Virus record (IMG/VR): IMGVR_UViG_3300035670_000971 | Span: 1-29,888 of that record | From: a virus | Strand: one strand, 5' to 3' | Length of the DNA stretch: 29,888 nt | Part shown: positions 1-26,242 of the stretch, piece after piece | Numbering within the stretch: position 1 is the stretch's first letter | How the letters are laid out: each line of letters opens with the position of its first letter | Program-made: the position numbers and the translations under genes | Notes under the pieces: model-generated | Seen by the model: only the letters and a program-made list of their open reading frames with translations | Database searches by the model: none | Told to the model about the DNA's origin: nothing

Positions 1-514
1 ACGAATTCATGTTTGTGTCGTAAACGATTTCAGCGTTTTTGATTCCCTGGGATACCTTGGCGGCTTCCTGAAGGCCCGTGGTCTTACCCGCACCCGTACC
101 ACCCGCGGTAAACAAAACCAGGTTGTCGCGGCCTGGTGGGGTGTCCTGGGACAGTTTTTCGGCATACATTTGTTTCACAAAGGCCGATGCGGGTTCGTGA
201 ACGTCTGCCGACCTGGTGCGATCCATCCGGTATTCAGGCGACATTTCACGGGCGTCGTCGGTGTTCAGAATGCGCCCGCCGTCGGTGCTAGGCAGCGCGG
301 AATACTCTGCCGCCAGGCCGGTGTAGTCATTGGCCAGGCGATCAAAGTAGGCCGATTCAATAGGATTTTGGCCCATGGCTGGGCCTTGCCCTGACACTTC
401 AGGCAACATAGGCTGCGGAACCAGCGACGCCAGGGTGGCCTGGGTCGGCGACCCCATGGGGGGCTGCGCCTGTTGCTGACCCGCCGCTGCTAAATCAGCA
501 AGCGGGATAGCCAT
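1..514 (-). CDS. N-terminal part of large P-loop (zeta-toxin-like) phage protein, cut by window edge
   Basis: The frame opens with ATG at 514, directly after the stop of the gene before it, and runs off the left edge without a stop, giving 171 residues. The first ~100 residues are Pro/Gln/Ala-rich, then acidic. Residues 133-146 (LVLFTAGGTGAGKT) are a strand plus Walker A P-loop, followed by a strand ending VYDTNMNS (164-171). This arrangement matches the zeta-toxin-like kinase domain carried by large phage polyvalent proteins as I remember the family. It is not a terminase ATPase, because the terminase end is at the other side of the window. The Shine-Dalgarno is weak, so translation may be coupled to the upstream gene. 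Catalytic residues beyond Walker A lie outside the window, so kinase activity is inference. Confidence 0.75.
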   Translation of the reverse strand, partial: MAIPLADLAAAGQQQAQPPMGSPTQATLASLVPQPMLPEVSGQGPAMGQNPIESAYFDRLANDYTGLAAEYSALPSTDGGRILNTDDAREMSPEYRMDRTRSADVHEPASAFVKQMYAEKLSQDTPPGRDNLVLFTAGGTGAGKTTGLQEAAKVSQGIKNAEIVYDTNMNS

Positions 515-739
515 TTATTTTTTCTGATAAGACTTGCGGTCGTGGGTGTAGCAAACGCCATTATGACGGCCACCATCGAATTGATGGTCGGGGCCAGTCA
601 GGTCGGCTTTGCCCATGCCAATGCCATTGACCATGGACGCGTTACGCGTACCGGTGTAATCGCTGGAATCGACGTGCTTCGGCATTTTGACGTCAGCGCC
701 ATAACCCTTGGGTTGCATTTCGGCGTTATCGTGTTTCAT
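515..739 (-). CDS. Hypothetical 74-residue phage protein
   Basis: This is a short, Gly/His/Lys-rich, hydrophilic protein with no membrane segment. The C-terminal third (GGRHNGVCYTHDRKSYQKK) has clustered His, Cys and basic residues. An in-frame ATG lies two codons upstream (745), but the AAAGGA Shine-Dalgarno abuts it. The ATG at 739 has the correct 5-base spacing and is preferred. The gene sits 10 bases after the Dps-like gene and directly before the P-loop gene, so the three are probably co-transcribed. I do not recognise a function. It could be a small virion or maturation protein given that it is linked to the P-loop gene. Confidence 0.7.
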   Translation of the reverse strand: MKHDNAEMQPKGYGADVKMPKHVDSSDYTGTRNASMVNGIGMGKADLTGPDHQFDGGRHNGVCYTHDRKSYQKK

Positions 740-749
740 GGTCATCCTT

Positions 750-1109
750 TCAGTCTAGGAATTTAAGTTTGTACAGCGTGGAATCAATCAACTGACTGAT
801 TTCGTCAATGATATTCTGGATTTCGGATTCTTGGGGCAAATCTTCGCGGGCCTCGTCCACAAACTGCTGCATGGATTTCAGGTACTTGACGGGGTCTGTA
901 CCGCTGTGGAATTCGTCAGGGTACTTTTTGATCTTGTTGTACCGGCCCTGGTAAGCCTCGGCAAAGTTGTCCACCAGGTCAACGATGCGAGTGTAATAAC
1001 GCGCCAACGCCTTATGCGCCGAAAACGAATCGGTCGATAGGTGCATGAAATGGGCCACGGTGCTGCTATGCAGCAGGGCGGCTATAAACTCGGCGGCGTC
1101 ATCATCCAT
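750..1109 (-). CDS. Small Dps/ferritin-like helical phage protein (DUF5856-like)
   Basis: The 119-residue product is predicted to be all-helical. It carries H20, H32, D47 and E51 in the context HxxH...FSAHKAL...DLVDNFAEAYQG. The intervals 12, 15 and 4 are the same as those of the E. coli Dps ferroxidase ligands H51, H63, D78 and E82, and the DxxAE pattern is shared. The protein is shorter than Dps (about 167 residues) and lacks the Dps N-terminal tail. I recall similar phage proteins under DUF5856 but cannot confirm membership. A role in iron or oxidative protection of DNA is inference. No convincing Shine-Dalgarno precedes the ATG. The gene follows a terminator, so it may have its own promoter. 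Confidence 0.7.
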   Translation of the reverse strand: MDDDAAEFIAALLHSSTVAHFMHLSTDSFSAHKALARYYTRIVDLVDNFAEAYQGRYNKIKKYPDEFHSGTDPVKYLKSMQQFVDEAREDLPQESEIQNIIDEISQLIDSTLYKLKFLD

Positions 1110-4481: not shown

Positions 4482-4640
4482 CTACTTCCCAAACCATTCA
4501 GGCTTCAAGGCCTTCAACTGCCAAACCCTTGCTTGCGGCAGGGCATCGCCCCATTGGCTGATCGCCTGGCGCGTGATTCCCAACAACTTGGCCAGCGCCA
4601 TGGCTGACCCCGCTTTCTGAATGGCTTGTAATTTGTCCAT
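4482..4640 (-). CDS. Cro-like repressor (52 residues)
   Basis: The reading frame ATG 4640 to TAG 4482 encodes MDKLQAIQKAGSAMALAKLL, then GITRQAISQWG, then LPQARVWQLKALKPEWFGK. This is the small helix-turn-helix architecture of phage Cro proteins: helix 2 AMALAKLLG, turn, recognition helix TRQAISQW, and a conserved VWQLK..KPEWF tail. It heads the replication operon, as cro does in lambdoid phages. It probably represses the divergent early promoters by binding the dyads at 4650-4663, 4693-4706 and 4715-4728. There is no Shine-Dalgarno, and the predicted transcription start falls on the A of ATG, so the mRNA is likely leaderless. No CI partner is present in the window. Confidence 0.88.
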   Translation of the reverse strand: MDKLQAIQKAGSAMALAKLLGITRQAISQWGDALPQARVWQLKALKPEWFGK

Positions 4641-4646
4641 GCTCGC

Positions 4647-4675
4647 ATGGTAAGCCAACTTTCGCTTTTTTGCAA
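4647..4675 (-). promoter_or_regulatory. Sigma70 promoter for cro and the replication operon
   Basis: Minus strand: -35 TTGCAA (4670-4675), 17-base spacer, -10 TACCAT (4647-4652). Six bases later comes the A of the cro ATG (4640), the expected transcription start. Confidence 0.72.
4650..4663 (-). promoter_or_regulatory. Operator-like dyad O3 on the cro promoter
   Basis: Minus strand GAAAG-TTGG-CTTAC overlaps the first bases of the -10 of the cro promoter. It differs from the perfect dyad GTAAG-N4-CTTAC in one position. Confidence 0.6.
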
Positions 4676-4692
4676 CACCCTAAAATAATTTT

Positions 4693-4706
4693 GTAAGGGG
4701 GCTTGA
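4693..4706 (+). promoter_or_regulatory. Operator-like dyad O1 on the -35 of the rightward promoter
   Basis: GTAAG-GGGG-CTTGA. It covers the first four bases of the TTGACA -35 and lies 22 bases (about two helical turns) upstream of the next copy. Confidence 0.5.
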
Positions 4707-4731
4707 CATGGTAGGAAAGCGGGCTTAACAT
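4703..4731 (+). promoter_or_regulatory. Sigma70 promoter of the plus-strand early operon (P1)
   Basis: -35 TTGACA (4703-4708, consensus), 17-base spacer, -10 TAACAT (4726-4731). Start is expected near 4738, giving a leader of about 50 bases before the LPD29 gene. Confidence 0.8.
4715..4728 (+). promoter_or_regulatory. Operator-like dyad O2 on the -10 of P1
   Basis: GAAAG-CGGG-CTTAA overlaps the start of the -10. The wider 15-mer 4717-4731 matches the copies at 4695-4709 (plus), 4647-4661 (minus) and 5872-5886 (plus) in the pattern AAG-N2-GGCTT-N3-AT. Confidence 0.55.
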
Positions 4732-4753
4732 AGGAACCGTAGTGATTGATAAC

Positions 4754-4786
4754 GCCCTCACGGGTCTTTTTAGAAAGGAAGTCAAA
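4754..4786 (+). promoter_or_regulatory. Leader with small hairpin, T-tract and strong Shine-Dalgarno
   Basis: CCC-TCAC-GGG (4755-4764) is followed by TCTTTTT and GAAAGGAAGT. The same order of elements recurs at 5896-5930 downstream of the second promoter, so it looks like a shared leader module. Confidence 0.45.
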
Positions 4787-5329
4787 ATGTCCAAGCAATA
4801 TTTCTCTTGTGCCGAAACCGCCAAGTTGGTTCGTGCAGCCCTCAAAGAATCATTCCCTGGCGTCAAGTTCAGCGTTCGCAGCAGCGTGTACAGCGGCGGC
4901 GCCAGCATCAGGGTTTCATATGTCAACGGCCCGTCGTATGACCAGGTTAAGCGCGTTGTCGGAATGTTTGAAGGCAGTTACTTCGACGGCATGACCGACT
5001 ACAAAGGCTTGAATTACAGCAGTTTCAATGGCCAGGAAGTTCGGTTCGGCGCTGACTTTATCTTCGTTGAACGCAAATTCACGGTCGCTTTTCTTGAGGC
5101 TGCTGTTGATGCTGCGGCTGCTGAATTGGGATTCGCAGCGCCCAAAGTTGTTGACGGCAGTTTTGGTGCTTACGTCGAGTATTCAGCCGATAACGCCCAG
5201 CGATTAGTCATGGGCAGGGTTGACGATGTTAGTGAAGTCGAAACGAAAGCCAGCGCCACGCTGGCCCAGGTCGGCTTCCTGGGTGACGACGGTTATGGAT
5301 ACGGCGCCGTTGGCCGTATCGCAGCGTAA
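4787..5329 (+). CDS. LPD29-domain protein (polyvalent-protein-associated), first gene of early operon
   Basis: The product is 180 residues from ATG 4787, preceded by GAAAGGAAG. It opens with YFSCAETAKLVRAALKESFP and continues FSVRSSVYSGGASIRVSY, VGMFEGSYFDGMTDYKG and EVRFGADFIFVERK. This is the pattern I know from LPD29, a domain attached to phage and plasmid polyvalent proteins and also found alone. The C-terminal ~75 residues are Ala/Gly-rich and less conserved-looking. Being first in the operon suggests an early host-interaction or defence-countering role, which is inference. The N-terminal part of another putative polyvalent protein lies at 1-514. Confidence 0.72.
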   Translation: MSKQYFSCAETAKLVRAALKESFPGVKFSVRSSVYSGGASIRVSYVNGPSYDQVKRVVGMFEGSYFDGMTDYKGLNYSSFNGQEVRFGADFIFVERKFTVAFLEAAVDAAAAELGFAAPKVVDGSFGAYVEYSADNAQRLVMGRVDDVSEVETKASATLAQVGFLGDDGYGYGAVGRIAA

Positions 5330-5339
5330 GGGGATGGCC

Positions 5340-5438
5340 ATGGACAAGGAACCTAGTGATTTTCAAATCCTGTTGATGGCCTTGGCAGCGGGGGCCGTGC
5401 TTTACCCGCTGCTGTTTGTAGTGATGGCAATTTTTTAA
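5340..5438 (+). CDS. Small single-pass membrane protein (32 residues)
   Basis: MDKEPSDF is followed by one hydrophobic segment (ILLMALAAGAVLYPLLFVVM). ATG 5340 has AAGGGG six bases upstream. An in-frame ATG at 5334 abuts the Shine-Dalgarno and is less likely. The gene lies between two clearly translated genes with close spacing. Function is unknown; inner-membrane small proteins of early operons often target host membrane complexes. Confidence 0.6.
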   Translation: MDKEPSDFQILLMALAAGAVLYPLLFVVMAIF

Positions 5439-5448
5439 GGAGACTGGA

Positions 5449-5640
5449 ATGTTTGAAGACAAATATCAGTTGGAAACCTGGGCGGGGCCGTCGATGGCCA
5501 CCGTGCGGGCCAGGCAGTTGGCTGCGTTTGGTGGTCGTTGCAAATGCGGAAAACTCAAAGACCCAGTAATGAAGCAAACCGGCAGCCGCAAATGGCTTGC
5601 TTGCTTGCGTTGCTTGGGTACTGTGAAGGCGGTGTCGTAA
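5449..5640 (+). CDS. Small zinc-ribbon-like protein (63 residues)
   Basis: The C-terminal half has CKCGKL (C31, C33) and ACLRC (C52, C55), which can make a compact four-Cys zinc ribbon. The N-terminal half is polar. AAGGAG stands 6-7 bases before the ATG. The stop overlaps the next start as TAATG. I do not recognise a specific family. DNA or protein binding is inference. Confidence 0.7.
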   Translation: MFEDKYQLETWAGPSMATVRARQLAAFGGRCKCGKLKDPVMKQTGSRKWLACLRCLGTVKAVS

Positions 5641-5873
5641 TGGCCACGGGAACAATTCGCACGTTACTGGCCGGCGCGGTCATGGGTGGGGCAGTTGTCA
5701 TGGCGGCTTGGTGGGTTGATAACCAGCCGCCTAGACCCACGCACCGCGAAATCATCCTGGCTTACCAGCAGGGCCGCGTTGATGCTTTGAAACTCAATCC
5801 GGTGTCCTGGGATTTGGAACAGGCTTGCGTTGGTTTGTGGGCCGGTCGTTTGCCTGTTGACACGCAAAAGTAA
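5640..5873 (+). CDS. Small membrane-anchored protein (77 residues)
   Basis: The start at 5640 overlaps the previous stop (TAATG), so translation is probably coupled. Residues 4-24 are a single hydrophobic anchor (TIRTLLAGAVMGGAVVMAAW). The soluble part (HREIILAYQQGRVDALKLNP, then LEQACVGLWAGRL) contains the 'YxxGxxDALK' pattern common in small phage proteins of unknown function. The 3' end of the gene contains the -35 of promoter P2. Confidence 0.7.
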   Translation: MATGTIRTLLAGAVMGGAVVMAAWWVDNQPPRPTHREIILAYQQGRVDALKLNPVSWDLEQACVGLWAGRLPVDTQK

Positions 5874-5886
5874 GTTGGCTTACAAT
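5857..5886 (+). promoter_or_regulatory. Second early promoter (P2) for the recombination genes
   Basis: -35 TTGACA (5857-5862), 18-base spacer, -10 TACAAT (5881-5886). The start is expected near 5893. The -35 is consensus and the -10 matches five of six positions. Confidence 0.72.
5870..5883 (+). promoter_or_regulatory. Operator-like dyad O4 on P2 (perfect copy)
   Basis: GTAAG-TTGG-CTTAC has two perfect 5-base arms and overlaps the first bases of the -10. It is the best copy of the dyad found at the other two early promoters. Confidence 0.62.
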
Positions 5887-5895
5887 GAAGTCATG

Positions 5896-5915
5896 CCGCA
5901 ATCGTGCGGTCTTTT
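5896..5915 (+). promoter_or_regulatory. Hairpin near the 5' end of the P2 transcript
   Basis: CCGCA-ATCG-TGCGG followed by TCTTTT. It begins about three bases after the predicted start, then leads into GAAAGGAAG and ATG 5931. It may be a 5' stabiliser or a weak attenuator. Confidence 0.5.
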
Positions 5916-5930: not shown

Positions 5931-6185
5931 ATGCAAGTTAATCAATCAATCCAGCAGCGCCAAATGTTTGGCTGTGATCCTGACCAATTTTTGGACAGTC
6001 TCAAAAACAGCAGCACATACAAGTTCACCGGCGCCCTTATGTCAGCGGCCAGCGTACTTAGCGACGCTCAAGAATTGATGGCCATGGGCGATGTTGAACG
6101 CGCCCGCCAGGAAATCAACTTGGCCAAACTGATTATTTTTGAAATCATGGACGGCAATTTGGTTGCCAATGTCCCACGCCAATAA
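5931..6185 (+). CDS. Hypothetical helical early protein (84 residues)
   Basis: The protein is soluble and mostly helical: TGALMSAASVLSDAQELMAM, then DVERARQEINLAKLIIFEIM. It is the first gene behind promoter P2, with AAAGGAAG before ATG 5931. It resembles small phage proteins found just before ERF or Bet recombinases, but I know no function. Upstream in-frame ATGs lie inside the leader and are not favoured. Confidence 0.7.
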   Translation: MQVNQSIQQRQMFGCDPDQFLDSLKNSSTYKFTGALMSAASVLSDAQELMAMGDVERARQEINLAKLIIFEIMDGNLVANVPRQ

Positions 6186-6535: not shown

Positions 6536-7138
6536 ATGGAACCATCATTCAATAAAGTTGCGGCGGCGCTGGTCAAAGCGCAAAAGGAATTTGGCCCCGC
6601 GTTAAAGTCCAGCAGCAATCCGCATTTCAAGTCCCGTTACGCCGACCTGGCCGCTTGCGTTGAAGCGGTGATCGACGCGCTCAACAACAACGGCATTGCA
6701 TTGACCCAGCGGGTCAGCCCATGCGACGACGGCGTGGTTGTCGAAACCGTGTTTATTCACGAATCCGGCGAAATCATCAACTGCGGCCAACTACACGTTC
6801 CGGCCACTAAACAAGACGCCCAGGGCTACGGGTCAGCATTGACTTATGCCCGCCGCTACTCGCTCATGGCGGCCTGTGGTATCGCCCCTGAAGACGACGA
6901 CGGCAACGCAGCCACCAGGCGCCCGACCGCACCGGCCCAGCCGATTCCTGACATTACCGACCACCTGGCGGCCATTGAAGCATCGGCCAACAGCGACGAA
7001 ATGACTGCCGCATATAAGGCAGCCTATGACGCCTGTAAGGGCAACCAGCAACTTCAGGCAAAAGTCATCGCGGCCAAGAAAGCCCGCATTGAACGCGCCA
7101 AGAAGGAAAAACTAGCAAAGGAAAACGAAAATGAGTGA
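6536..7138 (+). CDS. erf: ERF-family single-strand annealing recombinase
   Basis: The N-terminal ~125 residues, VAAALVKAQKEFGPALKSSS, NPHFKSRYADLAACVEAVIDALNNNGI, VVETVFIHESGEII and the closing QDAQGYGSALTYARRYSL with DDDGN, are the ERF core of P22-type annealing proteins. The C-terminal part is a Pro-rich linker and a Lys-rich helix. It pairs with the YqaJ exonuclease, the start of which overlaps this stop by eight bases, giving a two-component homologous recombination system. ATG 6536 has GAAAGG upstream; the earlier in-frame ATG is inside the lipoprotein gene. Confidence 0.92.
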   Translation: MEPSFNKVAAALVKAQKEFGPALKSSSNPHFKSRYADLAACVEAVIDALNNNGIALTQRVSPCDDGVVVETVFIHESGEIINCGQLHVPATKQDAQGYGSALTYARRYSLMAACGIAPEDDDGNAATRRPTAPAQPIPDITDHLAAIEASANSDEMTAAYKAAYDACKGNQQLQAKVIAAKKARIERAKKEKLAKENENE

Positions 7139-7769
7139 CATTGAGCAACGCAGCGATGATTGGTATGCCGCCCGTTTGGGCAAAGTTACGGCCAGCAGCC
7201 TTCATAAAGTCTTGGCCAAAACTAAAACAGGTTACGGGGCCGACCGTGGCAATTACATGACCCAGTTAGTTTTGGAACGGCTGACCAGTAGTAAAGCCGA
7301 TTCCTACGTCAACGCGGCCATGCAATGGGGCATTGACCAGGAACCCTTCGCCAGGGCGGCCTATGAAGCCGCCAAAGACGTTTTGGTGGATGAAGTGGGG
7401 TTTGTACCGCACCCGACCATTGAAATGGCTGGCGCCTCGCCTGACGGCCTGGTGGGCGACGATGGCATGGTGGAAATCAAATGCCCTGAAGTTAAAACCA
7501 CTATGGAATGTTGGCTGTTGTCAGTTGAAGACAAGAATTACATTGAAGGCAAATACTTTGCCCAAATGCAATGGCAAATGCGCTGCGCTAATCGCGCTTG
7601 GTGCGATTACGTCATATTCGATTCCAGAATGCCAGACAAAGCCCAATTGCTTGTTACTCGCGTTATGCGTGACGATAAATGGCTGGCCGCCACGGAAGCG
7701 GAAGTTATCAAGTTCCTGGCTGAAGTCGATGCCAAGGTCGCAGCACTCAAAAAAATCATAGGGGAATGA
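7131..7769 (+). CDS. YqaJ-family (lambda Exo-like) exonuclease
   Basis: The 212-residue product starts with QRSDDWYAARLGKVTASSLH, has WGIDQEPFARAAYE (E71, E80) and the nuclease core GASPDGLVG (D105) with VEIKCP (E115, K117), then YFAQMQWQMRC. These are the conserved blocks of YqaJ viral recombinases with the PD-(D/E)xK fold. It degrades one strand from dsDNA ends to supply ssDNA for the ERF protein encoded directly upstream. Length and order of motifs are normal for the family. Confidence 0.93.
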   Translation: MSDIEQRSDDWYAARLGKVTASSLHKVLAKTKTGYGADRGNYMTQLVLERLTSSKADSYVNAAMQWGIDQEPFARAAYEAAKDVLVDEVGFVPHPTIEMAGASPDGLVGDDGMVEIKCPEVKTTMECWLLSVEDKNYIEGKYFAQMQWQMRCANRAWCDYVIFDSRMPDKAQLLVTRVMRDDKWLAATEAEVIKFLAEVDAKVAALKKIIGE

Positions 7770-8030: not shown

Positions 8031-8234
8031 ATGAAAGCGGCCAACTTTGAAAAGTCTGACCGCCTTCAGCGGGTCTTCAAGTTGCTGCGACGGGGTGGGG
8101 AATACACCACCCTGGACATAGTGACCAAGGCCCAGGTCTGCGCGGTCAATAGCATCATCGCGGAGTTACGGCAAAACGGCTACAACATCAGTTGCCAGCG
8201 CCGCGGTGACCGTTGGTTTTACCGTCTAAAGTAG
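8031..8234 (+). CDS. Winged-helix/HTH protein (67 residues)
   Basis: RLQRVFKLLRRGGEYTTLDI, then VNSIIAELRQNGYNI followed by a basic beta-wing (CQRRGDRWFYRLK) fit the small HTH_39-like proteins of phage genomes. It is the last gene of the plus operon. Its stop overlaps the end of the opposing endolysin gene by nine bases, so no terminator can lie between them. It may regulate transcription or act as a DNA-binding accessory; the target is unknown. Confidence 0.75.
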   Translation: MKAANFEKSDRLQRVFKLLRRGGEYTTLDIVTKAQVCAVNSIIAELRQNGYNISCQRRGDRWFYRLK

Positions 8235-9292: not shown

Positions 9293-11730
9293 CATTGCCC
9301 TTTCTTGCTAACGTCTTCTAAAGTTGAACCAGCACCAGGTTTTAGTGCCTTTTCCGCTTCACGACGCTCACGCGCTGACCGAATTACTCGTCGGGCTTCG
9401 CTGCCAATCGGGTAGCCAAATGTCTTCAATCCCATGATGTTGCCAGTCTGTTCCAATCCACCAGCGGCTTTTTCTGCTAAGTATCCAACAAGGGTGTTGG
9501 AATTATTGACGAACGACCCACGCGGCTGGAATTGCGTATAAGCGGCCACGTTGCCAAGGGTGCGCAACTGCAACTGACTGTCAGGGTCAAAAATAACCCC
9601 AAAATTCTTGACGTCGTCCAGTTTTTTGACGGCCTTGTTGTAGTTTGCCTGGCTAAAATTACCCTTGCCATCAACAATGCCGGCCTTGTCTGACAGCCAG
9701 TTGATTGTTCCGGCTTTTATATGCTGGTGGCCAACTGAATCACGGCCCAGGGTGTCCACCATGGTGTTGATGTTTTTGTTAACGCCGTTAATCACAAACT
9801 TGTCGAAATACTTGTCAGCCGGCACGGTGTCATTGACCGCGGCTTTGTAGGCTGGGTCTTTTTTCAACGCATCAAAACGGGCTTTGGCCAGGCTACGGGC
9901 TTCGTCAGCAATTGGTTTTAATGCCGCGGTTTCATTCGTCAACGGTAAGTTGTCCAATTCCTGAACCATGGTTCGCGCAGCCTGGCGAACGTTTCCATCT
10001 TTGGCTTCGGCAGACAATCGACTAAGGTTGCGCCTCATGGACAAATACTGATCGAATGTCATCGTGCCGGTTTCGGCCAATGATTTAAGTTCTTTGTACT
10101 GCGAAATGCTTTGGCCGTCTGTTAGCAGCAGTTCATCTGCCAATGATTTGTCAACATTTTTGAGCAACTTAGCCGAATCCACCGGCAGTTCACCGCCAGC
10201 CAGGTTCCGCAATTCATCGTATTTATTGGTAATGGTTACATTGCGTTCTTGATCCAATGCTTTGTACGCATCAATCAACGCCTGGCTGGATTCGATGGTT
10301 TTGGTGGCGTACACGTCCGGCGCTGCGTTTTGGCGAATCAACGGCACGTTGTCCACCAACTGTTTGTTTTGTTCGTCAAAACGACGGGCAAACTCTGTTT
10401 GTTTGCCTTTCAAATTCTGTTCGCGGGACAACTTCACCACGTCGCCGGTGGCCTGGCCTTCAGTCAGCCGAACGGGAATGGGCAACGAATCGCCCTCTAA
10501 ATGGCGCAGCACCACGGGGGTGTTGACCTTATCCAAAGGCATATTGCCGTACAACTGCTGGAATTCAGGGGTGGCCGTCTGCAACGCTTGTTGAATAATC
10601 GTCGCATCGGGTACACCGGCAGCACCCACGCTGGCGCGGCCAGGCACGACCGGTGGTACTGGGGCTGTGGGCTGGCCAGGTACGCCAAGGGTCGGCGCCC
10701 TGGTGGGCATGGTGGTCGTGCCAGGCGCAATGGCTTCCACGGCCCCAGCAACACGACGCTGCACCCCGACAGGGGTAACGTCTTTGGCGGCTTCCAAAAC
10801 CTTGCCACCGGCTGCTTTTGCCGCTTGGCCAGCCATTCCAACTTCACGCTGCACCGTCTTGCTAAACGGCAGCGCAGTCGCGCCCAGTTCCATGTAGTAC
10901 TGAACGTCTTGTTTTGGCATACCGGTTCGCTGGCTGATCCAGTCGGCGCCTTTTTCGATGTTTTGGCCGATAAATTCCATCATTTGCTGGGTGGCCTCGC
11001 CCTTGTATTCAGGCGTTTCGGTAATGCCAAAGGCTTTACCAAAGGGTCGGTCAATGGCGCTGACCACTTTGCCTTTGGTGGCCTCGGCTTCTTCAGGGGT
11101 TTGACCCATGGCCCGTGCGCCCGCGTAGGTGACCATGCCAGCCACGCCAGGAACAACGCCGGTGATTGTGTCGGCCAGGGCGGCGCTCGACCGCAAAAAC
11201 TGGGTAACCTTGCCTGAAACGCCTTTCAGTTTAGGCTTTTCGCCAAAGGCTTCAGCCACGGCAGCGGCTACTGCTTCCGGTTTCATCAGGTCGTCAACGG
11301 TAATTTGACCAGGGGTTTCCATGGCTGCCGGCTGCGCGGCTGTGTCACCGGTCACTTTTTGAACATATTGGGTCGGGTCTTTAGTGACAAACCCACCGTA
11401 GTCTTTTAAGGCCAGGTTAATGTCACCGCCGCGGCGCTCGACCAGTTGGCCAAGGTAAGTCCTGGCCGCTTCGCGGGCTTCCTTTTCGTCGAACGGGTTA
11501 AATTTCATGCCCTGTTTGTGCAGCATTTGAACCGTGTCAGGCATAAATTGATATGGCCCCATGGCCTTGGTCTTTTTGTTGATGGCAAACGTGTCACCAC
11601 CGCTTTCAACCTGGCGCAGCCGGTCTAACAACTGATCTGTAATAACAGCAGTTTGGCGATTAGTTGGCGTTTTTATACCAAACGCTTCATTAACTGCTGC
11701 GTTAATTGTTTTGGGGTCAAATTCGTTCAT
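9292..11730 (-). CDS. Internal virion (ejection) protein with N-terminal lytic transglycosylase domain
   Basis: The product is 812 residues. Residues ~30-128 are an SLT/lysozyme-like domain: LRQVESGGD with catalytic E42, GPYQFMP, and INLALKDYGG. The rest is helical with Gly/Ala-rich, partly hydrophobic stretches (about 183-215) and long charged helices, as in P22 gp16 or T7 gp16-type proteins that exit the capsid and form a conduit through the envelope. The domain would open peptidoglycan on entry. It shares TAATG overlap with the gene before it. Position after two other ejection-type genes supports the call. Confidence 0.8.
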   Translation of the reverse strand: MNEFDPKTINAAVNEAFGIKTPTNRQTAVITDQLLDRLRQVESGGDTFAINKKTKAMGPYQFMPDTVQMLHKQGMKFNPFDEKEAREAARTYLGQLVERRGGDINLALKDYGGFVTKDPTQYVQKVTGDTAAQPAAMETPGQITVDDLMKPEAVAAAVAEAFGEKPKLKGVSGKVTQFLRSSAALADTITGVVPGVAGMVTYAGARAMGQTPEEAEATKGKVVSAIDRPFGKAFGITETPEYKGEATQQMMEFIGQNIEKGADWISQRTGMPKQDVQYYMELGATALPFSKTVQREVGMAGQAAKAAGGKVLEAAKDVTPVGVQRRVAGAVEAIAPGTTTMPTRAPTLGVPGQPTAPVPPVVPGRASVGAAGVPDATIIQQALQTATPEFQQLYGNMPLDKVNTPVVLRHLEGDSLPIPVRLTEGQATGDVVKLSREQNLKGKQTEFARRFDEQNKQLVDNVPLIRQNAAPDVYATKTIESSQALIDAYKALDQERNVTITNKYDELRNLAGGELPVDSAKLLKNVDKSLADELLLTDGQSISQYKELKSLAETGTMTFDQYLSMRRNLSRLSAEAKDGNVRQAARTMVQELDNLPLTNETAALKPIADEARSLAKARFDALKKDPAYKAAVNDTVPADKYFDKFVINGVNKNINTMVDTLGRDSVGHQHIKAGTINWLSDKAGIVDGKGNFSQANYNKAVKKLDDVKNFGVIFDPDSQLQLRTLGNVAAYTQFQPRGSFVNNSNTLVGYLAEKAAGGLEQTGNIMGLKTFGYPIGSEARRVIRSARERREAEKALKPGAGSTLEDVSKKGQ

Positions 11731-24985: not shown

Positions 24986-26242
24986 TTAAGCCGCGACACG
25001 GCAAGCGAGTTCTTGGTACAACGGCGCCCAACCATACAGCACGTCCAAGCGAGTTGGAATGCTGTCGTTGTTAATCGTGTACTGACGAACCACGCGGATC
25101 GACAGGCCAAGTTCTTTGTCTGACGCACGGCCAGCAAAGTGAACACCATCAGGCAGTTCCAGGTCAGCCGTTGCCAGCGTGAACGCATTGCGGTGCATCA
25201 CAATGTTTTGAGGGCTGACAGTACCGGTTGCCGACGTACCGATGCTGAACGGGGTGACCGTTGCAGTTGCGGAAGTGGTCGGAATGGTCACGTTTTGGAA
25301 TTGGCCGGCGGTAATGATGGCAGGGGCCACGGTCACCGAAATGGTGCTGGAACCGGAACCGGTAACGGTCGATTGAACGACAAAGTTACGCAGTTTGTTG
25401 GAACCATAAGCCTGACGGTTTTGTGGGTTGACGGCAAACACGTTGGCAATCTGAATCACGTCGCCCTGGTTCAGCGTCAATCCGGCGCTGTGGGTCAGGG
25501 TGATGGTGGACGTGGACGCCCAGCCAGTAGCGATACCGATTGATTGGGTGTTGGCAGTCAGCGTGCCAGCGGTCGTAGTCCATGCACCGAACGTTTGCGA
25601 GATAACGTTCTGATCCATTTTCCAGTTCATGCCGCCCGAATCACGGCCCATCAGACCCTTTTGGTACTGGGTGCTGACAGCGGATTGGGGGTTGAACAGA
25701 CCTTTGAGGCTGTCAACAATGGTGGCGCTGGTGAATGGCTCGATGATGCAAGACCGGCGTCCGTCGCGGGGCGCACCCTCTGAATCCAGGTAAGCCTGGG
25801 CGGTCAGGTAGGTGATAAGACCCGTGGGCGGGGTTCCAGCGGAACCAACAATGTTGGCGGTGCTGTTTTTGGCCATGGTCAGACCGTCAAAGTCGATCTT
25901 GTTGGCGATAGCGGCGACGGCGGGCTTTAGCACTCGGTCGCTGAACATATCCAACGAAAGGGCCAGGTCTTGTGTCGTGAATTGGGTGTCAACGTGGAAT
26001 TGAGTTGACAGGGTCACGGGGATACTGGTTTCGTTGAAATCTTCAACGTTAAGGGCGGGGCCGGTCGTACCGATAAAACGGCCAGGACGGCGAACGTTCA
26101 GGGTGTTACCAATTTTTGCGCCGACAACAGCGAATTGGTCGTCATATTCGCGGTTTACTTCGCTCGAAAAGGTAAGTTCGTTTTCCAAGACCATCAACGC
26201 TTCGTTGGTGATCTTGCTAATGGTTAGCAAATTGTTGGACAT
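24986..26242 (-). CDS. Major capsid (coat) protein, P22 gp5-like
   Basis: The 418-residue protein (P22 coat 430) begins NLLTISKITNEALMVLENEL, continues with FAVVGAKIGNTLNVRRPGRF and VDTQFTTQDLALSLDMFSDR, and ends VVRQYTINNDSIPTRLDVLYGWAPLYQELACRV-like. These are conserved blocks of the P22 coat family (HK97 fold). Residues ~230-345 form a Thr/Ser/Val-rich beta insertion at the place of the P22 I-domain. GAGGAAAC precedes the ATG. Position after scaffold confirms the role. Confidence 0.9.
   Translation of the reverse strand: MSNNLLTISKITNEALMVLENELTFSSEVNREYDDQFAVVGAKIGNTLNVRRPGRFIGTTGPALNVEDFNETSIPVTLSTQFHVDTQFTTQDLALSLDMFSDRVLKPAVAAIANKIDFDGLTMAKNSTANIVGSAGTPPTGLITYLTAQAYLDSEGAPRDGRRSCIIEPFTSATIVDSLKGLFNPQSAVSTQYQKGLMGRDSGGMNWKMDQNVISQTFGAWTTTAGTLTANTQSIGIATGWASTSTITLTHSAGLTLNQGDVIQIANVFAVNPQNRQAYGSNKLRNFVVQSTVTGSGSSTISVTVAPAIITAGQFQNVTIPTTSATATVTPFSIGTSATGTVSPQNIVMHRNAFTLATADLELPDGVHFAGRASDKELGLSIRVVRQYTINNDSIPTRLDVLYGWAPLYQELACRVAA

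Follow-up and report, generated by a model that had tools for sequence, protein, structure and literature searches.

Four similar dyads over the early promoters of a freshwater, P22-like phage are very probably operators of the 52-residue P22-type Cro encoded beside them, and would act in a joint early shut-off. The DNA analysed, referred to below as the window, is the whole of one IMG/VR virus record of 29,888 bases; it has no end repeats and represents an incomplete contig. The portal, coat and Cro proteins are P22-like in profile searches. The first-pass annotation had assigned the dyads to the Cro-like protein, and comparisons with relatives support this assignment: the operators are kept in place, and the half-site appears to follow the recognition helix of Cro, at internal promoters as well.

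Candidate operators and the Cro-like protein in the window

The cro-like gene is followed downstream by a replication gene (primosomal/DUF1376), and a rightward operon with genes for an Erf-like annealing protein and an exonuclease lies on the other side (Table 1). At the end of the rightward operon a small winged-helix protein is encoded (8031–8234, plus strand; HTH_39, 22.7 bits, cut-off 21.3), and the leftward operon includes a DUF5856 gene (750–1109, minus strand; phrog_858, "starvation-inducible transcriptional regulator"). Megablast with the window as query gave no match among isolated phages, and the first rightward gene as blastn query gave no match either. Rhodoferax phage P26218, reached via the portal protein, was rejected as an isolate counterpart; its early region differs and contains no annotated cro.

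The 52-aa protein is a member of the P22-Cro family. Its match to the Pfam profile has an E-value of 1.3e-12 and a score of 47.7 bits against a curated cut-off of 30.2. The AlphaFold model consists of five helices (pLDDT 89.6) and features the all-helical HTH Cro fold, the best PDB match being P22 Cro (1rzs, TM 0.78, rmsd 1.1), followed by N15 Cro.

The 15-mer pattern AAGNNGGCTTNNNAT occurs exactly four times in the 29,888 bp, at 4647–4661 on the minus strand and at 4695–4709, 4717–4731 and 5872–5886 on the plus strand. No further copy exists, as had been noticed on first reading; the expected number is 0.09, a figure biased on its own by the choice of the pattern after the sites were seen, and none of 100 shuffles reached four copies. 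The other details of the first-pass annotation were also reproduced. The perfect dyad GTAAG-N4-CTTAC is found at 5870–5883 only, where it overlaps the stop codon of the gene upstream; three sites overlap a −10 and one a −35 by direct reading, and two of the four are 22 bp apart. Within the window the motif does lie at each of the three early promoters; in relatives there are more promoters with sites.

Since the pattern had been chosen post hoc, matrices were built from other phages. A 22-bp matrix trained on 55 sites from close relatives, with the window left out, placed the four sites at ranks 1–4 with 20.1 to 22.2 bits (Table 1); the next-best match scored 13.9 bits, and the best score in 20 random sequences of 30 kb was 15.8 bits. 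The 13.9-bit match, at 26172, was discarded as an operator: it lies within the capsid gene and its score is in the random range. The identity of relatives to the window reaches 89% in the operator region, and therefore matrices from distant clades were also tried. The matrix of the diverged clade with the SL[AS]AISQ helix ranked the site at 5870 first and that at 4650 second. The matrix of the [SN][DS]AA-SQ clade had the four sites on top, but with all scores except one within the range of random maxima, and the matrices from clades with other helices (half-sites TCAAG, TTGAG and TATAG) did not pick out the four sites. The bare dyad was rejected as a detector. At two mismatches it was found 7 times versus 6.9 expected, which is chance level, and the flanks and position therefore carry information. 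The AT at the end of the 15-mer belongs in part to the −10, and the −10 hexamers raise the apparent likeness of three of the sites. Conservation of the dyad arms was 0.94, 0.73 and 0.86, versus 0.60 in the remaining intergenic region.

Table 1. Positions of genes, putative promoters, candidate operators and leader hairpins in the early region of the window
Feature	Position	Strand	Basis or remark
cro-like gene, 52 aa, recognition helix TRQAISQW	4482..4640	minus	Pfam P22_Cro PF14549, phrog_409
cro promoter: −35 TTGCAA (4675-4670), 17 bp, −10 TACCAT (4652-4647)	4647..4675	minus	direct reading
Candidate operator over cro −10, GAAAG-TTGG-CTTAC on minus strand	4650..4663	minus	22.2 bits; at −23 from ATG in relatives
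Candidate operator overlapping −35 of main rightward promoter	4693..4706	plus	20.1 bits
Main rightward promoter TTGACA-17-TAACAT: −35 TTGACA (4703-4708), −10 TAACAT (4726-4731)	4703..4731	plus	direct reading
Candidate operator over −10 of main rightward promoter	4715..4728	plus	21.3 bits
Leader hairpin GCCC-TCAC-GGGT, then TCTTTTT	4754..4765	plus	upstream of ribosome site and ATG 4787
First gene of rightward operon, phrog_15549, without assigned function	4787..5329	plus	PHROG match
Internal rightward promoter TTGACA-18-TACAAT: −10 TACAAT (5881-5886)	5857..5886	plus	
Candidate operator, perfect GTAAG-TTGG-CTTAC, over −10 of internal promoter	5870..5883	plus	20.4 bits
Leader hairpin GCCGCA-ATCG-TGCGGT of internal cassette	5895..5910	plus	starts about +3 of predicted transcript
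84-aa gene behind internal cassette	5931..6185	plus	family found after internal cassettes in 12 phages
Erf-like annealing protein, rightward operon	6536..7138	plus	phrog_2324, E=3.6e-43
Exonuclease, rightward operon	7131..7769	plus	phrog_149, E=2.9e-45

Conservation of the sites and co-variation with the recognition helix

A scan of viral contigs revealed 54 loci with a related Cro, and two further scans brought the number to about 100 relatives. Conservation of the sites and their rarity elsewhere had been set beforehand as tests of the operator assignment, and both turned out in its favour. In the 39 closest relatives the operators are kept in place, at −23, about −60 to −69 and about −87 to −106 from the cro ATG. 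The spacing of the two rightward operators comes in two discrete layouts, with 22 bp in one set of phages and 36 bp in another. The motif is not frequent elsewhere, as judged from the pattern count in the window and from scanning the records of relatives. The 15-mer pattern is present in 27 of 30 whole records, and the reversed control pattern gave zero in all of them; sites of at least 15 bits beyond the first 2 kb (391 kb) were found in one place only, in the leftward operon. Rightward DNA of 1.8 kb or more was available for 35 clade members. In 30 of them at least one internal operator is present, the positions falling mostly between 334 and 1,792 bp, and the other five show none.

In the leftward operon of relatives, the sequence GTAAG-N4-CTTGACA is located inside a zeta-like P-loop gene, 3.8–5.4 kb downstream of cro. 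Among 23 distinct sequences, the codons at this intragenic operator are fixed (Val GTA 21/21, Leu CTT 23/23, Asp GAC 23/23), and the neighbouring synonymous sites vary. Downstream of the TTGACA, at a distance of 17 bp, stands CATACT, CATAAT, CACAAT, GAAACT or GAAAAT, and then, 48–51 bases on, an overlapping ORF with some 60 codons. Coding coincidence, the first explanation for the matches between −3.8 and −5.4 kb on the leftward side, was overturned by the codon test and the fixed promoter spacing. The zeta-like P-loop gene of the window (GGTGAGK; 1–517, minus strand) belongs to the early leftward operon, and because the contig ends inside this gene, the window copy of the intragenic operator is out of view. 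Genes for a GroES-like co-chaperonin, recognised by reading or by annotation, are also present in the leftward operon of relatives: in L017 and L043 about 4.9–5.1 kb downstream of cro, in L179 at 7–198 and in L180 at 11032–11316.

The cro genes of the about 100 loci were grouped by recognition helix, and their upstream regions were examined for dyads. Co-variation of the helix with the dyad had been proposed as a check in the first-pass annotation, and the half-site does appear to vary with the helix in nine helix groups, which are clades and thus represent few independent events. The half-site GTAAG accompanies the helices TRQAISQ and SL[AS]AISQ; TTAAG accompanies TRAA(I/V)SQ, [SN][DS]AA-SQ and the helix of P22; TCAAG is found with SLQAVCQ, ATAAG with SQAAIAQ, TTGAG with TRGAIYH, and both TATAG and TCTAG with RGAVW. 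As GTAAG is common to two helices, the code is not one-to-one. Cross matches, with the half-site of each clade derived from the same data that were used for the comparison, occur only between half-sites 1–2 bases apart within the AAG-core clades, and there are none between AAG-core clades and the TTGAG or TATAG/TCTAG clades. The principle of agreement between half-site and recognition helix comes from Hall 2005, as cited in PMC4488713.

The internal sites change together with cro. Phages with the helix SLQAVCQ (L047, L142, L143) carry internal TCAAG dyad pairs over a −35 and a −10, and the internal sites of TRAA-SQ phages are TTAAG. Of all the evidence, this joint change argues most strongly for binding of these sites by this Cro. 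Dyads other than AAG-N4-CTT were seen beside Cro in L046 and L080 (helices NRSAISQ and DRRLVWN; CTTAAC..GTTAAG and TGTCCA-N6-TGGACA).

Only six bases separate the cro −10 from the cro ATG (4640) in the window. In nearly all relatives the −10 likewise ends 5–6 bases before the ATG, without a Shine-Dalgarno sequence, and this close layout is common to clades whose upstream sequences are unrelated; the exceptions are P22 cro and a small number of distant relatives. The cro transcript is thus predicted from its sequence to be leaderless. Upstream of cro, a number of loci (L144–L177, L062–L076, L044, L046, L050, L070, L072, L082 and L085) contain an almost invariant dyad, TAGGG-N4/5-CCCTA, centred about −42 to −47 from the cro ATG, the predicted start, and constant whatever the Cro helix. 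The cro promoter of these clades has no recognisable −35, and the dyad occupies the position of a class II activator. In the window clade a −35 of the TTGCAA type stands in place of this dyad, of which the window and L032 show just a half-site.

Proposed early shut-off and alternative readings

In the proposed mechanism, a Cro dimer on each operator would cover the −10 (or the −35) and block RNA polymerase. The targets would be the promoter of cro itself, the main rightward promoter with its paired operators and the internal rightward promoter 1.2 kb away. Accumulated Cro would throttle cro and the replication genes together with the recombination operon, and the operator at the internal promoter would keep that promoter from escaping Cro. 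We infer binding, repression and their timing, as well as leaderless translation and the hairpin function discussed below.

No CI-type repressor was found, and the system therefore looks like a lytic early shut-off and not a lysis-lysogeny switch. Peptidase_S24 and tyrosine integrase (PF00589) are absent from 30 records, with the exception of the isolate prophage L057. HTH_3 matches above the cut-off and tyrosine integrases are absent from 25 records, two circular genomes included, the search having covered integrases of the tyrosine type and, among repressors, HTH_3 and Peptidase_S24. The P22 positive control matches both HTH_3 and integrase. Those below-cut-off HTH_3 matches that were compared for place fall at cro, and the circular records MW202520 and MW202674 of the wider group have no HTH_3 match. 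Neither a divergent CI-type repressor nor a tyrosine integrase, as expected of a lambdoid CI/Cro immunity region, was found in the window and the relatives searched, L057 apart. A literature search retrieved no lytic phage with Cro but without CI.

It is very improbable that the dyads are bound by another regulator, of host or phage origin, and that Cro merely adjoins them. GTAAG is shared by two clades with different helices, and the Cro-independent TAGGG-N4/5-CCCTA at the cro promoter of other clades points to a possible second regulator within the wider family. Against this, the half-site tracks the Cro helix in the nine groups, at internal promoters too, no HTH_3 repressor exceeds the cut-off in 25 records, and AAG-N4-CTT also precedes P22 cro, where C2 and Cro bind. 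The idea that the sites are alike only as strong sigma-70 promoters, with no operator, is hardly credible. A −10 does lie within three sites and a −35 within one, and the final bases of the pattern are part of TANNAT, but the GTAAG arm falls in the spacer, a part for which sigma-70 shows no preference of this kind. Moreover, in some relatives, those with 36-bp spacing, the dyad precedes the −35, the GTA AGC codons of the coding gene are fixed just upstream of the −35, and the arms are different in clades that have a similar −10 together with another helix. It is also improbable that Cro serves as the sole immunity repressor of the phage, holding a carrier or pseudolysogenic state, and is not mainly an early-gene brake. 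Cro is the only repressor found and covers every early promoter, and leaderless translation is common to lambda cI and to PY54 cI and cro (PMC4488713). Arguments against this role are the transcription of cro from an early promoter that Cro itself would repress, the lack of a detected integrase and the finding of a single relative in 84,980 species genomes of bacteria and archaea.

The preferred operator reading agrees with what characterises a Cro operator set, several similar dyads over early promoters beside cro and a half-site in agreement with the helix. P22 has a Cro of the same family and fold, the AAG-N4-CTT core (the region before P22 cro reads TTAAGTCATCTTAA and TTTAAGTGTTCTTTAA), and the same arrangement of cro and replication genes on one side and an Erf recombination operon on the other, and the portal and coat of the window phage are P22-like. 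Unlike P22, the window phage has no C2 and no tyrosine integrase that could be found, its two divergent promoters are fused, with operator centres 66 bp apart, and it has operators with GTAAG arms, at internal promoters too. For its cro a leaderless transcript is predicted, in contrast to the cro of P22 with its ribosome site. The telomere phages PY54, N15 and phiKO2 have a Cro of the P22/N15 helical class, and PY54 cro was found to be leaderless by RACE (PMC4488713). However, PY54 Cro binds a single site and was suggested not to repress its own gene (PMC4488713), and CI is present.

Promoter–operator–hairpin cassettes

The internal rightward promoters are arranged in cassettes with the order −35, operator over the −10, leader hairpin and ribosome site; in the internal cassette of the window the hairpin is followed by a ribosome site and the gene at 5931. 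The hairpin motif was found behind 83 of 85 rightward operator sites, and in 58 of the 83 the stem starts eight bases past the −10, at approximately +3 of the RNA. The fourth stem pair is C-G in 16 and G-C in 8 distinct hairpins, the pairing being kept in 24 of 24. Four gene families are located behind the main promoter in some phages and behind an internal cassette in others (19/7, 4/2, 1/3 and 1/2, the first being the phrog_15549 family of the gene at 4787..5329). Hence, the cassette recurs as a unit before different genes, and the cassettes would have been moved by recombination.

Protection of the 5′ end of the mRNA is the preferred reading of the hairpin, consistent with the position of the stem near the start of the RNA. 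Its rival, an attenuator or terminator with which the cassette would end upstream transcripts and start new ones in the manner of PeSLs, is rather unlikely, and it is compatible with the operator assignment. The U-rich tract TCTTTT behind the stem at 5895–5910 and the resemblance to motifs of T4-type phages that combine a promoter and a terminator (cited in PMC4503421) speak for termination; most stems, however, have only 4–5 pairs, and the U tract is often broken (TCTATT, TCTCTT, TCTATC), whereas GGTCT and the hairpin are kept. Two other readings were rejected. A leader peptide was suggested by ATGCC...TAA in many leaders, but the ATG is missing in L037, L038 and the main leader of the window, where the hairpin stays; for boxA/boxB antitermination the hairpin loops are too variable to be boxB.

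The cassettes share with the PeSLs of T4-type phages, as described in papers that cite Arbiol 2010 and Comeau 2014, an early promoter with a stem-loop that is repeated before different early genes, and gene-cassette pairings that differ between relatives. Unlike in the PeSLs so described, the promoter of the window type carries a repressor operator, the hairpin stands directly behind the start and before the ribosome site, and the phages belong to another class. The scattering of repressor sites over the genome is also known for the stoperators of mycobacteriophages (PMC9283540). Stoperators are said to stop elongation and belong to an immunity repressor, whereas the present sites lie on a promoter −10 or −35 and are assigned to a Cro. 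A literature search on dispersed repressor sites of the phiC31 type found nothing.

P22-type Cro and its operators are already known. What is new is that operators extend to internal promoters and to one inside a gene, that they are part of a cassette, and that CI is apparently lacking. Cro is usually treated as the counterpart of CI in a switch. We tentatively consider that these phages may be a strictly lytic P22-like lineage, in which Cro without CI is the sole early regulator and Cro-repressible cassettes move as units by homologous recombination, with operators tracking the helix genome-wide, down to the intragenic operator. If this is true, newly captured early genes would fall under Cro at once, and Erf is encoded in the same operon; the cassettes would then be a concrete mechanism for putting newly acquired early genes under phage control. 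If a large environmental group keeps Cro and its operators while CI cannot be detected, nature would thereby provide evidence that early shut-off suffices for the retention of Cro. In addition, the cro loci, about 100 in number and of several distinct helix/operator types, form a natural data set on the recognition code of one small fold.

In a subset of internal cassettes (L006, L012, L013, L014, L015, L030 and L037–L042), a second inverted repeat is present in the −35 spacer. These repeats (GCCCG..CGGGC, GCCAG..CTGGC, GCCAA..TTGGC and GCCCA..TGGGC) mirror the operator centre and co-vary with the operator N4.
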